Assembly: GCF_000217795.1 (NCBI RefSeq)
Contig: NC_015681.1
Span: forward strand, 673,244-737,243
DNA from: Thermodesulfatator indicus DSM 15286
GTDB lineage: Bacteria; Desulfobacterota; Thermodesulfobacteria; Thermodesulfobacteriales; Thermodesulfatatoraceae
Reading direction: 5' to 3'
Length of the DNA stretch: 64,000 nt
Under the pieces are notes generated by a model, which was given only the letters and a program-made list of their open reading frames with translations, was not told the DNA's origin and did no database searches. Below, one piece after another: positions 31,897 through 38,431 of the stretch. The translations under genes and the position numbers were made by a program. How positions within the stretch are numbered: position 1 is the stretch's first letter; each line of letters starts with the position of its first letter.

Positions 31897-32325
31897 TTAA
31901 TTCGAATTAATTTTTTCTTTGAAGACGGGACAAGTATTTCCGGGCTTCCAGTTATTCATTACCGGATCAGAAAAATCTTTATGGCAGGGAAGGCATAAGC
32001 CCACTCTCAAAATGCGCTTAATCTCTTCTGAAGTAAAAGCCCTTAAGTCTTTGCGCGAAAAATTTACAAATACTTTTCCGTTTAGATCCGTAACCGCCGA
32101 AAGCGGGAAATCTAGTCCAAGTAGCTCACTTTCTTTCCTTTCAGCGCTCTCAAAGTGCCACTCACCATTGCCTAAATAGCTGAGAGAACCATAACCAAGC
32201 CCCACGGTCTTGGCTGAAGTATGACAATCCTCACAAGTACGAGCCTTGCTCGTAGCGTGAGGGTCCATAAATGACCAGGTCATTCTTTTGAATTCTTTTT
32301 TTAGCTTTCCGTCCCGGGAAAGCAC
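31897..32325 (-). pseudogene. C-terminal part of the multihaem cytochrome, after an in-frame UGA
   Basis: The frame continues directly from the upstream cytochrome ORF across a single TGA at 32343-32341, with no frameshift. It contains two more haem motifs, CEDCH and CLPCH, and the segment SKARTCEDCHTSAKTVGLGY, which looks like the end of a multihaem cytochrome. On its own it has no signal peptide, so its haems could not be attached in the periplasm, and its nearest start (GTG at 32325) has no good ribosome-binding site. It is best read as the end of a 562-residue protein (31897-33585), made only if the UGA is decoded, or as the debris of a nonsense mutation. Confidence 0.6.
32304..32323 (-). 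promoter_or_regulatory. candidate bacterial SECIS hairpin
   Basis: Starting 17 nt after the UGA on the minus strand: GCTTTCC, loop CGGGAC, GGAAAGC. A perfect 7-bp stem with a 6-nt loop that has G at its second position; the loop begins 24 nt after the UGA. This agrees with what I know of bacterial SECIS elements (short stem-loop directly downstream, apical loop about 16-37 nt from the UGA, G at the start of the loop). It is also within coding sequence, so selection on codons alone might give it by chance. Confidence 0.35.
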
Positions 32326-32340
32326 ACTAACAAAGTCCTG

Positions 32341-33585
32341 TCACCCGGGAACAATAATTAGCACCTCATCGCCTTTGACACCTAGAGTTGGCTCATCAAG
32401 GCGCATATACGAACGAAATTCTTCCCAGGCACCTGGGGTTTCCGTATTGGTAAGTTTGTCTAACTGTTTTTCACGAGGGTCATAACGTATATGACATCCA
32501 AAACATTGAGGCACCCGTGGAGCATGACAGGCTTGACAACTAAGCCTTTTGTGCACTGGATGTTCACATTTTATAGGATCAGGAGGCTTAAGCTCATATT
32601 TTCGGCCATTTAATCCGGTCAAAATCCATTTTTTTCCTTCCTTTTTGACTCGAGGCAACTTGTTACCTTTACGAGTAATACCTTTCCCTCCGTGACAGGA
32701 ACGGCAAGTTATCTCCAGGCTTTCTTCAAAATGATTATAGGCTTTCCCATCACCCATAGTTTCGTTAGCCACGTGACAATCCGTGCATACCAACCCGGCC
32801 TTGAAATGGATATCCGCGGGGATACGCCGTACAAAACGGCCATCAATTAGTGTTTCCGCCCCAAAGTCTCCATCAGTATAAGGGGTGCCGTAACCTTCGT
32901 CTTCATAAAGTCCTTGATAGGTAAGACCAATACGGCCGCTTCTATTGTGGCATCTTACGCAATTTTCCAAGGGAATCTTACGAGTGAGTATTGGGTGTTT
33001 GGCTCCTTTTGGGCCTTTTACTAAGTGGCAAGCCACACATCCCCCGCCTTTTTCCGCCAGAAAATCTGGAAGCTTACCCTTTTCCATCCATAAATGACAG
33101 GAGCCACAAAGCTTGCGGTAATAATCAAGGGCTAGTGAATTTTTCCCGGTTTTTAAGAGATACTCTACGCTGTCTTCGGGACGATTTTTGGCATCTTTAG
33201 GAATTTCTCCCCAGTAACGCAAAAGAACATTTATAATCCCTCTGTTAGTAGCCATAAGGGACTTTTTCACTTTGCCTGGCATTTCTGGATGACATTCAGG
33301 CCTCCCGCAAGTTTTTTCCACTACCCGCAGGTCCCCCGGATTTTTTACCATACCCGTATGGGCCAGGTCTTTATCCATGCGCAAGGGATTGCCTAAATGA
33401 CAAGGGGAACAGCCTACCACTTCCCGGCTGTGGACTTTTTCAGGCGCTTCATCATGGCAGGCCAAACACATCTCCACCCGACCAGAAGTAGTGGTGAACA
33501 CCTGAGGAGCCCTCTTGCGCTTCCATTCCTTAACCAGAACAAAAACTAAAAGGGCTATACCTAAAATAACAAAAATCTTTCTCAT
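32341..33585 (-). CDS. multihaem cytochrome c, membrane-anchored (N-terminal part up to UGA)
   Basis: 414 residues beginning with one membrane anchor (IFVILGIALLVFVLV). Nine CxxCH haem motifs are visible: CLACH, CSPCH, CGSCH, CVACH, CVRCH, CTDCH, CRSCH, CQACH, CFGCH, plus one longer CGRPECH. Two more occur past the UGA, for up to twelve haems. It is the last gene after Rieske and cytochrome b genes (4-nt overlap with cytochrome b), so it probably takes electrons from that quinol-oxidising unit, in place of cytochrome c1, and passes them on in the periplasm. The stop TGA follows IIVPG; the next in-frame residues are QDFVSVLSRDG. Odd: the ORF is interrupted although neighbours are intact. Confidence 0.85.
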   Translation of the reverse strand: MRKIFVILGIALLVFVLVKEWKRKRAPQVFTTTSGRVEMCLACHDEAPEKVHSREVVGCSPCHLGNPLRMDKDLAHTGMVKNPGDLRVVEKTCGRPECHPEMPGKVKKSLMATNRGIINVLLRYWGEIPKDAKNRPEDSVEYLLKTGKNSLALDYYRKLCGSCHLWMEKGKLPDFLAEKGGGCVACHLVKGPKGAKHPILTRKIPLENCVRCHNRSGRIGLTYQGLYEDEGYGTPYTDGDFGAETLIDGRFVRRIPADIHFKAGLVCTDCHVANETMGDGKAYNHFEESLEITCRSCHGGKGITRKGNKLPRVKKEGKKWILTGLNGRKYELKPPDPIKCEHPVHKRLSCQACHAPRVPQCFGCHIRYDPREKQLDKLTNTETPGAWEEFRSYMRLDEPTLGVKGDEVLIIVPG

Positions 33586-34400
33586 CGATTAAAGCCTACC
33601 CACATAAGAAAAAAGTAAACAACATGCCAAGCAAGCAAAATACCTGCTGAAAACTTAGGAAATTTTTTATACCCAAATAAAGCAACCACCGGTATAGAAG
33701 GGAAGACTACGCCAGCCCAAAATGGCGGCAAATGCCTGAGAAGCTCTTGAATACCTACAAAAAACCAAGGACCAAGGACAGAAAGGTCCGGCTCAAAAGG
33801 CCTCAGAAGTGGTGGGTAAATCAAAGTTAAAGCCGAGGCCAATAAGCCCATGAAAGCCAGATCATATATCTTGATTTTTTTAAGATTAAAGTGCCAACCA
33901 CAAAGCCCTATAAACAAAAGAAAAGATACACAGATATGGGCGGCATAAATCCTGTGAACTCCTTCTTTGGAAACGGCCATTATAAGATGATTCAAAAAGC
34001 TACCTACTAACGGCACTTCAAGCAACAGGCTTTCAGCAATATGGCCGGCAGAAGAGCCTATTTCATCATTACGCACCACATAACCGGAAAAAAGAGCAAA
34101 TACGGTGAGGGGAAAAGTAACTATTAAAAGGAACCAAGAAAACCAACTTTTGCGGGCATAACTTCTAAGCCTCAGGCTATCTACAATGTGGGCCAACAAA
34201 AACAAAAAAGCTAACTGGCCTGTGTAAAAATGAATTCCTCTGATAAAATCACCAAAAGGTAAAACCCCTTCTATACCAACCGTTGAAACAAGAGGCATCT
34301 CTACCCTAAAAGGAAAAGCCAGAAAAACTCCACTTATCAGGGCCAATAAAAAAGAATTAGCCGCCGCCCAGGCTATAAAAGGGTTAACCCGGGAGCTCAA
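33582..34400 (-). CDS. cytochrome b (b6-like N-terminal domain) of a Rieske/cytochrome b complex
   Basis: A 272-residue membrane protein. Haem-ligand pairs are visible: H-x13-H in IHFYTGQLAFLFLLAHI and H-x14-H in AAHICVSFLLFIGLCGWHF, the second spacing being that of cytochrome b6 rather than mitochondrial-type b. A GFG-like loop (FSGYV) and SFLNHLIMA follow. Additional hydrophobic segments at the C-terminus (YDLAFMGLLASALTLIYPPL) may stand for the subunit IV part. It should oxidise quinol with the Rieske protein encoded just upstream (17-nt overlap) and pass electrons to the multihaem cytochrome downstream. Confidence 0.87.
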   Translation of the reverse strand: MSSRVNPFIAWAAANSFLLALISGVFLAFPFRVEMPLVSTVGIEGVLPFGDFIRGIHFYTGQLAFLFLLAHIVDSLRLRSYARKSWFSWFLLIVTFPLTVFALFSGYVVRNDEIGSSAGHIAESLLLEVPLVGSFLNHLIMAVSKEGVHRIYAAHICVSFLLFIGLCGWHFNLKKIKIYDLAFMGLLASALTLIYPPLLRPFEPDLSVLGPWFFVGIQELLRHLPPFWAGVVFPSIPVVALFGYKKFPKFSAGILLAWHVVYFFLMWVGFNR

Positions 34401-34782
34401 CGATAAGCCCCCCTTGTTTTTGACTAACAGCTAAAACTTCAAGGTCTTTTTTAGCCGGGCCAGCTATATATTGGCCGCTTTTAGTAAAACGGCTCTGGTG
34501 ACACGGGCAGATAAAAATTTCTTGCCGAGGATCATAGTTTACCTGGCACCCTAAATGAGGACAGCGCCGCCAAAGGGCAAGCCAGCTATCCTGTTGTTTT
34601 ACCAAGAAAAAATCTTTAGCCACATATAAATTTTTGTTTTTGAGCTCCTCCCCTTTGACCAACACCTTTTTAGGGGGCCGAGGGAAAATGTGCACAGCCA
34701 TATAAAGACCGGTAACGGCCAATCCTCCCAAAAATAACTTGGCCCCAATACTTAAAAAGTCTCGACGGGAGCTTTGTTTCAT
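34384..34782 (-). CDS. Rieske [2Fe-2S] protein
   Basis: A 132-residue protein: a twin-arginine signal (SSRRDFLSIGAKLFLGG) and membrane anchor, then the Rieske site CPHLGC (box 1) and CPCHQSRF (box 2), with two Cys and two His ligands. High-potential electron acceptor from quinol in a bc-type complex. The TAT signal fits export of a folded cluster. It starts one base after the upstream RNA-methyltransferase stop. Confidence 0.93.
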   Translation of the reverse strand: MKQSSRRDFLSIGAKLFLGGLAVTGLYMAVHIFPRPPKKVLVKGEELKNKNLYVAKDFFLVKQQDSWLALWRRCPHLGCQVNYDPRQEIFICPCHQSRFTKSGQYIAGPAKKDLEVLAVSQKQGGLIVELPG

Positions 34783-36111
34783 TTATGAAGTTTTCTCCAA
34801 TAAAGTTACACTTTCAAGGTGAAAAGTCTGGGGAAACATGTCAAAGGCCTTGACAGAAAGAATTTTAAAACCAAGCTTTTGCAAAATCTTAAGGTCTCGC
34901 GCGAGGGTGGGTGGATCACAGGAGATGTAAACTAATTTTTCTGAAACCACGTCAGGCAAAAAGCGAAGAATCTCTTTGCAGCCTCCCCGTGGGGGATCTA
35001 GTAAGGCCAAAGGAAAAGAGCGAGCTTCTTTGAAATAATTAATCAGGGCCTCTATGGCCGAATACACTTCAAAGGTTACCTGGGAAAGCCCCCACAAAGA
35101 GGCATTTTCCTGAGCATCGGCAATGGCCCGGTGGTCAGTATCAACACCTTCTCCACAATTAGTCCCGGTGGCCAGTGGTAACAAAAAATTCCCTATTCCA
35201 CAATGGACGTCTAAAATTTCCTGGCCAGAGGCAAGGGGTAAAATCTCTTTCAAATAGGCCATAATATTGAGATTAATCTCCCAGTTAGCCTGGACAAAGA
35301 CTCCAGGAGAGGCCCAGAAAAATACATCTTTTTCGGTACCGGCAATTTGTTTGGGTATAGGCATACGCCGGCGACCCCGGTCTTTGGCGTCTTTGGGGAA
35401 TGGGCCTACCGGATTTCTTCCACGAATCCAATAATAAATAGCTTTGAGCACCGAAAGTTCTTCATAAATTTCGGCCAGATCCTCTTCACGGGGAGCAAGT
35501 TGACTCCAGAAAAGGAGCACCACTTTTCTTTCCGCCAGAGAAAGGGCCAGGTTCACTCGTTTAACATAAGGATGCAGGCGCTTCCAGGCCGGTATATCAG
35601 GGAGTTTTTTGATTACCTCGTTAATTTCCGGTGCAGCCAGAGCACATTCCCTAACCGGAACCAGATCATGAGAGCGACGCTTCAAAAAGCCAAGGGCCCC
35701 TGTTTCCTGATGCACGTGAAATTGCAGGCGGTTACGGTAAAAAAATTCTCTTGGCGAAGGCACAATACCTGAGACCAGCTCCTTAGCAGGAAGCTTTCCG
35801 GTGCGCTCAAGGGTTTCACAAAAAATAGAAAGCTTTTCTTCTAGCTGCCGCGTGTAAGGCAGATGTTGAAACTGGCATCCCCCACAAGAAGAAAAATACG
35901 GACAGATCGGTTTTCTGCGCTGAGGATCAGGCTCAAGGATCTCTAAAGGCCTGGCGAGCGAGTAGTCTCCAAGCCTTTGCGTTATTTTTATATGAACTTT
36001 TTCGCCAGGAATAACATCAGAGACAAAGACCACCTGGCCGTCAGGAAGCCTTGCCAGCCCCTCTCCACCGTGGATGAGCTTTTCAATAACTACTACGGCT
36101 TCAGGCTTCAT
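34783..36111 (-). CDS. TrmA/RlmD-family RNA (uracil-5)-methyltransferase
   Basis: About 442 residues. N-terminal TRAM-like domain (IEKLIHGGEGLARLPDGQVV), an iron-sulfur site with CPYFSSCGGCQFQH, and the methyltransferase domain VDHCGIGNFLLPLA (motif I; ILDVHCGIGN), ALLDPPRGGC, and the nucleophile Cys in YISCDPPTLARDL. These assign it to the 5-methyluridine methyltransferase family; which rRNA or tRNA uridine is not determinable. Start: the ATG at 36111 (MKPEAVVVIEK) is preferred over 36129. The 3' end abuts the Rieske gene. Confidence 0.88.
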   Translation of the reverse strand: MKPEAVVVIEKLIHGGEGLARLPDGQVVFVSDVIPGEKVHIKITQRLGDYSLARPLEILEPDPQRRKPICPYFSSCGGCQFQHLPYTRQLEEKLSIFCETLERTGKLPAKELVSGIVPSPREFFYRNRLQFHVHQETGALGFLKRRSHDLVPVRECALAAPEINEVIKKLPDIPAWKRLHPYVKRVNLALSLAERKVVLLFWSQLAPREEDLAEIYEELSVLKAIYYWIRGRNPVGPFPKDAKDRGRRRMPIPKQIAGTEKDVFFWASPGVFVQANWEINLNIMAYLKEILPLASGQEILDVHCGIGNFLLPLATGTNCGEGVDTDHRAIADAQENASLWGLSQVTFEVYSAIEALINYFKEARSFPLALLDPPRGGCKEILRFLPDVVSEKLVYISCDPPTLARDLKILQKLGFKILSVKAFDMFPQTFHLESVTLLEKTS

Positions 36112-38431
36112 GGTCAAAAGCCGCAGCAATAGGTCCTCGCGGGGTATCTATGACCCAAAAACCCTGCTTTATCAGTTCTTCGCGCAAGCGGTCAGCCTTT
36201 TCAAAAAGCCCTTTTTGGCGGGCTTCTTCTCGGCGTGCTAAAACTTCTTTAACTTCAGGTTCAGCAGCGATTTTCGCCTCGCGAATAATGGCCAAAACCT
36301 TGTTGACCTTGCTTAAAGCCTCTTTGACCTTCAATGTATCATCTTCGTCAAGACCTTCTCGGCTAAGTACTGGCTCAAGCCGATTGGTAAACTCAAAAAG
36401 AGCCGCAAACGCCTTGGAAATATTCAGGTCATCGTCTAAAGCTGCTTCAAAACATTCTAAAAAATTCTCTACAGTTTGGGCCACGGGAAAATCAGTCTGC
36501 CCGCTAGGCTCTCGCGCCAAAAACACCATAAAAAGGTCAAGCCCTTTTAGGGCTTTAGCCGCTTCATCTAGGGCTTTAAAAGAAAAATCAAGAGGCTTGC
36601 GATAATGAGTGCGCAAAAGAAAGTAGCGTATTCCCCGCCCAGAGTACCCCTTGGCCAAAAGCTCCGGGATAGTAATGGCGTTTCCGGCAGAAAAAGACAT
36701 CTTTTTGCCCTTACGAGAAACAAGAGCCGAATGCAGCCAGAAACGAGCCGGAATTTTTCCCGTAAGGGCGCGGGCAATGGCTATTTCGTCTTCATGGTGA
36801 GGGAAGATAAGATCTGTTCCGCTAGTATGAATGTCAAATTCCTCGCCGAGATACTTGAGAGACATGGCCGCACACTGGATATGCCAGCCTGGACGCACCT
36901 TACCCCATTCGGTTTCCACATAAAACCCTTCTTTTAGTTCCTGAAGAGAAGCCCTCTTAAATAGGGTAAAATCAAGCGGATCGTCTTTTTCGTAATCTTC
37001 AAGGTCAACAGTTGCTCCAGTTTTTAATTTGGTAAGATCAATTTTTGAAAGAAGGCCGTAGTTTTTAAGTTTTGAAACATCAAAATAAACTGACCCGTGT
37101 CTTACGTAAGCAAAATCTTTTTCTATAAGACGACGAGTAAGTTCAATCATCTCCTCTATATGTTCACTGGCCCGCGGGTAAAAACTCGCCTGAGAAATAT
37201 TGAGAGTTTTAAGGTCTTCAAAAAATTCATGAGCTACTCTCTGAGTTAGTTCTTTTAAAGGAATTTTATTTTCTAAAGCAGCTTGAATAGTCTTATCATC
37301 AAAATCAGTAAGGTTAACCACGTGAGTCACTTCATAGCCTTTGTATTCAAGATAGCGTCTCAAGAGGTCAGCTGTAATCATACGACGGTAAAGCCCAAGA
37401 TGAGGCCTTCTATGAACAGTAGGACCACAGGTGTAAATACCCACCAGGCCTTCCTTTAAAGGCTTAAAGGCCTCTGTTTTTCTCGTCAGGGTGTTGGTAA
37501 AACGTGGCCCTTGTTTGGGCAGGTCTTCAAAGTCCCAAAGGGACGTAGAAAGATAGCGCTCACCCCCATCAGGGAAGATAACGACTATTACACCTTCGTC
37601 TATGCGTTTAGCCAGCTCAAGGGCCCCGTAAAGAGCGGCCCCTGAACTCATGCCCACAAAGATACCTTCTTCCCTGGCCAGGCGGCGAGTAAGCTCAAAA
37701 GCCTCTTCATCAGGCACGTTTATGATTTCCGCAAGAATCTTCTTATCAAAAATGCCCGGCGGGTAGGACTCTTTCATATTTTTAAGGCCCTGCAAACGAT
37801 GGCCTGGTAAAGGCTCAACCCCTATAACTTTTGCTGGGAGATTTTTATCTCTGAAAAAACGGGCCAGGCCCATGAGGGTGCCTGTAGTCCCCATACCGGC
37901 TACAATATGGGTTACTTTACCCTCGGTGTCTCGCCAAATTTCAGGTGCTGTACCGTAATAATGGGCCTGCCAGTTGGCAGGATTATTGAACTGGTCGGTA
38001 AGATAATATTTATCGGGATATTTACGGGCGAGTTCATAGACCGCTTCAATAGCCCCGTCTGTTCCCTTTTCCGCAGAGGTGAGCAAAATCTCCGCACCAA
38101 AGGCCCGCATAATTTTACGGCGCTCAATGGAAGCTGCCTCACTCATGGCTATTAAGCAACGGTAGCCCTTAACTGCTGAAACCAGCGCCAGGCCTATGCC
38201 GGTATTTCCGCTTGAAGCCTCAATGATAATCTTCTCTCGGGTTAGCTCTCCAGATTCTTCAGCGGCTTCTATCATAGAAAGGGCAATGCGATCTTTTACC
38301 GAACCGCCAGGGTTTACGGCTTCAATTTTTCCGTAAATCTGGACTTTGGGGTTAGACCTAAGCCTCCTGATAGGAACCAAAGGGGTATTACCAATGCGGT
38401 CTAAAATATTTCCATATTTTTTTCTGGCCAT
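36101..38431 (-). CDS. fused cysteine synthase and cysteinyl-tRNA synthetase
   Basis: A 776-residue fusion. Residues 1 to about 300 are a CysK/CBS-type O-acetylserine sulfhydrylase: PGGSVKDRI (PLP lysine 46), SSGNTGIGLA, GMGTTGTLMG, SSGAALYGAL. Residues about 325-776 are a cysteinyl-tRNA synthetase: TCGPTV with zinc Cys335, HVVNLTDFDDKT, WHIQCAAMS (zinc Cys), TSGTDLIFPHHEDEIAIARA, and a helical C-terminal part. The HIGH motif reads HLGL (344-347) and KMSKS reads KMSFS (577-581), both unusual. The fusion would make cysteine and charge it on the same polypeptide. It precedes the methylase gene (11-nt overlap). Confidence 0.9.
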   Translation of the reverse strand: MARKKYGNILDRIGNTPLVPIRRLRSNPKVQIYGKIEAVNPGGSVKDRIALSMIEAAEESGELTREKIIIEASSGNTGIGLALVSAVKGYRCLIAMSEAASIERRKIMRAFGAEILLTSAEKGTDGAIEAVYELARKYPDKYYLTDQFNNPANWQAHYYGTAPEIWRDTEGKVTHIVAGMGTTGTLMGLARFFRDKNLPAKVIGVEPLPGHRLQGLKNMKESYPPGIFDKKILAEIINVPDEEAFELTRRLAREEGIFVGMSSGAALYGALELAKRIDEGVIVVIFPDGGERYLSTSLWDFEDLPKQGPRFTNTLTRKTEAFKPLKEGLVGIYTCGPTVHRRPHLGLYRRMITADLLRRYLEYKGYEVTHVVNLTDFDDKTIQAALENKIPLKELTQRVAHEFFEDLKTLNISQASFYPRASEHIEEMIELTRRLIEKDFAYVRHGSVYFDVSKLKNYGLLSKIDLTKLKTGATVDLEDYEKDDPLDFTLFKRASLQELKEGFYVETEWGKVRPGWHIQCAAMSLKYLGEEFDIHTSGTDLIFPHHEDEIAIARALTGKIPARFWLHSALVSRKGKKMSFSAGNAITIPELLAKGYSGRGIRYFLLRTHYRKPLDFSFKALDEAAKALKGLDLFMVFLAREPSGQTDFPVAQTVENFLECFEAALDDDLNISKAFAALFEFTNRLEPVLSREGLDEDDTLKVKEALSKVNKVLAIIREAKIAAEPEVKEVLARREEARQKGLFEKADRLREELIKQGFWVIDTPRGPIAAAFDHEA

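Follow-up and report, generated by a model that had tools for sequence, protein, structure and literature searches.

The closest described counterpart of the locus analysed here is the extHIJKLMNOPQS cluster of Geobacter, a selenite/tellurite reduction operon that encodes, besides the 12-haem cytochrome ExtM, a Rieske protein (ExtO) and a cytochrome b (ExtP; PMC5877670). The recognised selenoprotein of this cluster is ExtKL and not ExtM (PMC1914089, PMC5877670). A 2026 inventory of prokaryotic selenoproteins comprising 119 families includes ExtKL, the selenocysteine form of the octahaem tetrathionate reductase family and the GSU2204 family (PMC13188914). The opinion voiced in a preliminary description of this DNA, that a multihaem cytochrome with selenocysteine would be a novelty, has to be abandoned, since such residues were already predicted in ExtKL (PMC1914089, PMC5877670) and in the octahaem family (PMC13188914). 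An ExtM-like selenocysteine family is absent from the 119 families of the inventory (PMC13188914), and a search of open-licence papers on ExtKL or ExtM and selenocysteine yielded nothing further. As far as could be found, selenocysteine in the ExtM-like family described below has no earlier prediction.

The window, a stretch of 64,000 nucleotides from the genome of Thermodesulfatator indicus DSM 15286 (one contig of 2,322,224 bases), contains on its minus strand a cytochrome gene whose frame opens with an ATG at position 33585 and reaches a TGA at 32343-32341 after 414 codons. The preliminary description had reported that the same frame proceeds beyond this TGA for 143 codons with two further haem motifs; the unshifted continuation and both motifs (CEDCH and CLPCH) were recovered, the length being corrected to 147 codons that end with a TAA at 31899-31897. 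The read-through product comprises 562 residues and carries the TGA at position 415 within the local sequence IIVPG-U-QDF. Ten haem motifs ahead of the TGA, nine of the type CXXCH and one CX4CH motif (CGRPECH), together with the two behind it give the twelve haems proposed earlier. The best overall explanation, to which we assign a probability of about 95% on the basis of comparative sequence analysis, is that the UGA is a selenocysteine codon and that translation yields one ExtM-like 12-haem cytochrome c. Although it looks split, the gene most probably encodes a single long protein that carries electrons, and its downstream coding part is of use only when joined to the first part by read-through. 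The features of the locus are compiled in Table 1.

Table 1. Features of the cytochrome locus in the window
Feature	Position	Strand	Evidence
Dodecahaem c-type cytochrome, ExtM-like, 562 aa when read through UGA (predicted Sec415)	31897..33585	-	Frame, homology
In-frame UGA, predicted selenocysteine codon 415, motif PG-U-QDF	32341..32343	-	Aligned codon TGA or TGC/TGT in 69 homologues
Downstream coding part, 147 codons and stop, haem motifs 11 and 12	31897..32340	-	dN/dS well below 1 in pairs with estimable dS; invariant residues
N-terminal hydrophobic helix, residues 2-25	33511..33582	-	Sequence; AlphaFold2 helix 2-25
SECIS-like hairpin, 7-bp stem, loop CGGGAC	32304..32323	-	p=0.010 against synonymous-codon shuffles
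Cys340 codon, probable haem distal ligand	32566..32568	-	Cys in subfamily; Met/His in nearly all outer relatives
Cys552 codon	31930..31932	-	Cys in 37/38 subfamily rows; absent from outer relatives
Cytochrome b, N-terminal type, ExtP-like	33582..34400	-	PF00033 1.2e-13; NF040969 ExtP 6.3e-18, below cut-off; gene order conserved
Rieske iron-sulfur protein, ExtO-like by position	34384..34782	-	PF00355 8.3e-12; gene order conserved

The protein is homologous to ExtM over most of its length, has the same number of haems and shows a predicted PG-Sec-Q where ExtM has PG-Cys-Q at the matching site; in both cases the genes are linked to those of a Rieske protein and a cytochrome b (PMC5877670). The two sequences are only about 32% identical, and the outer relatives do not possess Cys340 and Cys552 of the window subfamily. 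The ExtM equivalog model NF040943 matched the cytochrome with 279.7 bits (3.9e-83) against a cut-off of 800 bits, whereas the 12 haem c motifs and the PG-[Cys/Sec]-Q site typical of ExtM are both present. Judged by these comparisons, the cytochrome is a distant relative of ExtM and not an ExtM equivalog. No ExtH, I, J, K, L or S was noticed next to it within the window. Likewise, no match to the ExtKL model NF040886 was obtained at E<=1, and the pentahaem ExtKL, which resembles the window protein as a multihaem c-type cytochrome with one predicted selenocysteine, is a different protein with the residue at a different site (IPDG-U-PTPN in an ExtKL homologue). The octahaem tetrathionate reductase family TIGR04315 shares the periplasmic multihaem nature and a predicted selenocysteine form (PMC13188914), but differs in having 8 haems, and it aligned only weakly over 45 residues (E=0.011; 14.7 bits against a cut-off of 375 bits). 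No model of NCBIfam (June 2026) reached its own cut-off on the window protein. Outside the window, the same genome encodes an ExtKL homologue (L117, G000:C1:246752-248041, minus strand) with one in-frame TGA and the sequence IPDG-U-PTPN; this genome would probably make two distinct selenocysteine-containing multihaem cytochromes.

The alignment of homologues proposed in the preliminary description, with the prediction of cysteine or selenocysteine at codon 415, gave TGA in 36 of the 69 sequences and TGC or TGT in the other 33, and the deduced residue was selenocysteine or cysteine in all 69, although these homologues are mutually related and the counts overstate the number of independent events. 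TGA-bearing homologues range down to about 50% identity, and neither TAA nor TAG was ever found at the site. The conservation of an in-frame UGA along with cysteine in homologues is a mark of bacterial selenoproteins. Six additional TGA members were read after the 69 had been counted, and a single TGA within the match was registered, without base-by-base reading, in G330, G273, G347 and G398. A search of 60 related genomes produced 30 long matches, including that of the window itself, nearly all with one internal TGA. In a 55-row alignment residue 415 was as invariant as the haem cysteines, and H443, C451, C454 and H455 were invariant in the downstream part. In those pairs for which dS was usable, the dN/dS ratios downstream of the TGA lay between 0.02 and 0.16, which indicates that the frame behind the TGA is under purifying selection. 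On a tree calculated without site 415, three changes of state were needed compared with a mean of 23 after shuffling. The likeliest reading of this tree, which leaves the root uninferred, is a single gain of selenocysteine followed by two reversions to cysteine (L037 in genome G034 and L085 in genome G103).

The perfect 7-bp hairpin GCTTTCC-CGGGAC-GGAAAGC described earlier was confirmed in SECIS position directly 3' of the UGA, with distances from the UGA of 18 nt to the start of the stem and 25 nt to that of the loop, and with a G as second loop base. Its specificity was assessed by taking the best stem-loop whose loop lies at a SECIS-like position and has a G among its first two bases, and comparing it with those of 400 synonymous recodings of the identical peptide. 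This test was chosen after the outcome of a plain MFE z-score was known and replaced that score, which separated the groups, yet called only 12 of the 36 TGA members. With the hairpin test, p<=0.05 was obtained for 24 of the 36 TGA members versus one of the 33 cysteine members (L037), and the hairpin energies of the two groups differed clearly (Mann-Whitney p=4e-8); the hairpin is specific to UGA members. The result was non-significant in the remaining 12 TGA members, and a few members (L040, L101 and L103) had only a weak stem as their best perfect one, so that the simple SECIS model applied here does not fit every gene. The sequences and positions of the stems vary among subclades, as exemplified by ctttcccGGGAgggaaag, cccttttGGATGAaaaaggg and tccctgctGGATGagcaggga; therefore, the hairpin itself is conserved and not one fixed sequence. 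L037 has TGC in place of TGA, is nested among selenocysteine members and retains an 8-bp hairpin, which is probably a fossil SECIS left by a recent change from selenocysteine to cysteine, since L037 falls inside the selenocysteine clade.

The search for the selenocysteine machinery suggested at the outset was successful: the window's genome contains selA (637.8 bits), selB (394.7 bits), selD (372 bits) and a tRNA-Sec with anticodon UCA, a complete set as expected in a genome that encodes bacterial selenoproteins. The selD gene (L051, G000:C1:1520604-1521527, minus strand) has one in-frame TGA itself, and selenophosphate synthetase is probably a selenoprotein in this genome. Moreover, selA was found in all 44 searched genomes with a completeness of at least 90% and a contamination of at most 5%; it was missing in three of 55 genomes tested, which were 64-72% complete. 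All genomes with the cysteine form that were checked for selA were positive (G090, G123, G150, G175, G197 and G103), and the machinery thus permits, but does not force, the selenocysteine form. According to the proposed mechanism, SelB and Sec-tRNA(UCA) would read the UGA at 32341-32343 with the aid of the hairpin just downstream.

That the UGA is a selenocysteine codon, as the preliminary description had suspected, is strongly supported by the residues of the homologues, the machinery, the recurrence in independent genomes and the UGA-specific hairpin. The open tail as such was dropped as stand-alone evidence for read-through: six of the 51 window ORFs of at least 120 aa are followed by at least 80 open in-frame codons beyond their stop. 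By itself this observation is weak, and the case for the cytochrome goes beyond chance because homology supports its read-through. An in-frame stop with a long open tail could also arise by a nonsense mutation that broke the cytochrome at codon 415 and left a pseudogene, but the site reads TGA, never TAA or TAG, in 36 homologues with identities as low as about 50%, and selection beyond it is purifying, which renders this explanation extremely unlikely. A single-base sequencing or assembly error deserves mention since the analysis is based on assembled sequence and not on reads; its probability is practically negligible, as the same TGA recurs in independently assembled genomes from many genera, including the named record L001 of a relative that is 90% identical.

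UGA is the leakiest of the stop codons, and translation probably yields some truncated product under selenium limitation; a conserved stop that is read through with an ordinary amino acid, giving 10-haem and 12-haem forms, could be envisaged on these grounds. This alternative is nevertheless very improbable, as cysteine is the sole other residue at the site, the genome contains the full selenocysteine machinery and the hairpin fits SECIS spacing. A global recoding of UGA does not apply, because TGA terminates 13 of the 51 window ORFs of at least 120 aa. The sequence also holds, in mechanical terms, an ORF from a GTG at 32325 to 31897, so that a 10-haem cytochrome ending at the UGA and a second protein might be produced. 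The second part lacks an export signal, as pointed out before, the residues PG-U-QDFVS around the UGA and ahead of the GTG are conserved as protein, and the cysteine homologues are single chains, leaving hardly any room for two separate proteins. The selenocysteine reading would extend respiratory electron transport by one more well-supported family of selenoproteins and correct the gene model: in dozens of genomes, annotation that stops at the UGA would leave a protein of no more than 414 residues.

The possible role of the selenium was approached by a survey of conserved residues outside the haem motifs in the subfamily alignment of 38 rows. Eleven positions with His, Met or Cys/Sec are kept (H52, H76, M111, H197, H260, M277, C340, H345, C/U415, H443 and C552), and three of them are cysteine or selenocysteine in a cytochrome with twelve haems; C552 is replaced by a gap in the single row without cysteine. 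In the outer relatives, His can take the place of M111 and M277, and Met or His that of C340. Since such alternation is ligand-like behaviour, these three residues resemble distal haem ligands, and residue 340 is a candidate for a Cys-ligated haem. C/U415 is never His or Met, which somewhat favours a redox or catalytic role over that of a plain ligand. Sec415 is most likely a functional residue, linked either to redox chemistry or to a haem, for which the subfamily-specific C340 and C552 are candidate partners. In the AlphaFold2 model (mean pLDDT 86.5) residue 415 belongs to a confidently predicted turn that joins strand 407-413 to strand 417-422. A comparison of this model with the PDB by Foldseek gave no match at E<=0.001 and the best hit of a PDB sequence search had E=0.026, so that there is no structural template for the site. 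It is conceivable, though rather doubtful, that Sec415 serves as distal ligand of a c haem that would be selenolate-ligated, or pairs with Cys340 or Cys552 in a Se-S redox couple located at a catalytic haem. If either were true, the protein would be a terminal reductase that depends on selenium and receives its electrons from a pared-down complex of Rieske protein and cytochrome b. Cultured thermophiles allow a direct test of whether a haem is ligated by selenolate or lies near a Sec-Cys couple, and because the Geobacter protein has cysteine at the same site, what the selenium changes can be studied by comparison inside a single family.

The hydrophobic helix at the N-terminus is a probable membrane anchor or export signal, and the predicted product is a single membrane-anchored periplasmic cytochrome c of the ExtM-like family. 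Its gene comes after those of the Rieske protein and the ExtP-like cytochrome b in the window, an arrangement of three genes that is retained at many loci of the order as well as in genome G160. By analogy with the proposal for ExtP, ExtO and ExtM in Geobacter, cytochrome b and the Rieske protein of the operon probably oxidise quinol and hand the electrons to the 12-haem cytochrome, a route that we consider somewhat more likely than not. The loci without the trio revealed no consistent partner among their neighbours, which included an aminotransferase, NAD synthase and HD and GGDEF regulators, and a plasmid search gave no match. In genome G014 the selenocysteine cytochrome (L067) adjoins cydAB, encoding cytochrome bd oxidase, and has no Rieske and cytochrome b genes alongside. 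Elsewhere in the window, an ORF of 776 aa at 36101-38431 resembles, by eye, a fusion of cysteine synthase and cysteinyl-tRNA synthetase.
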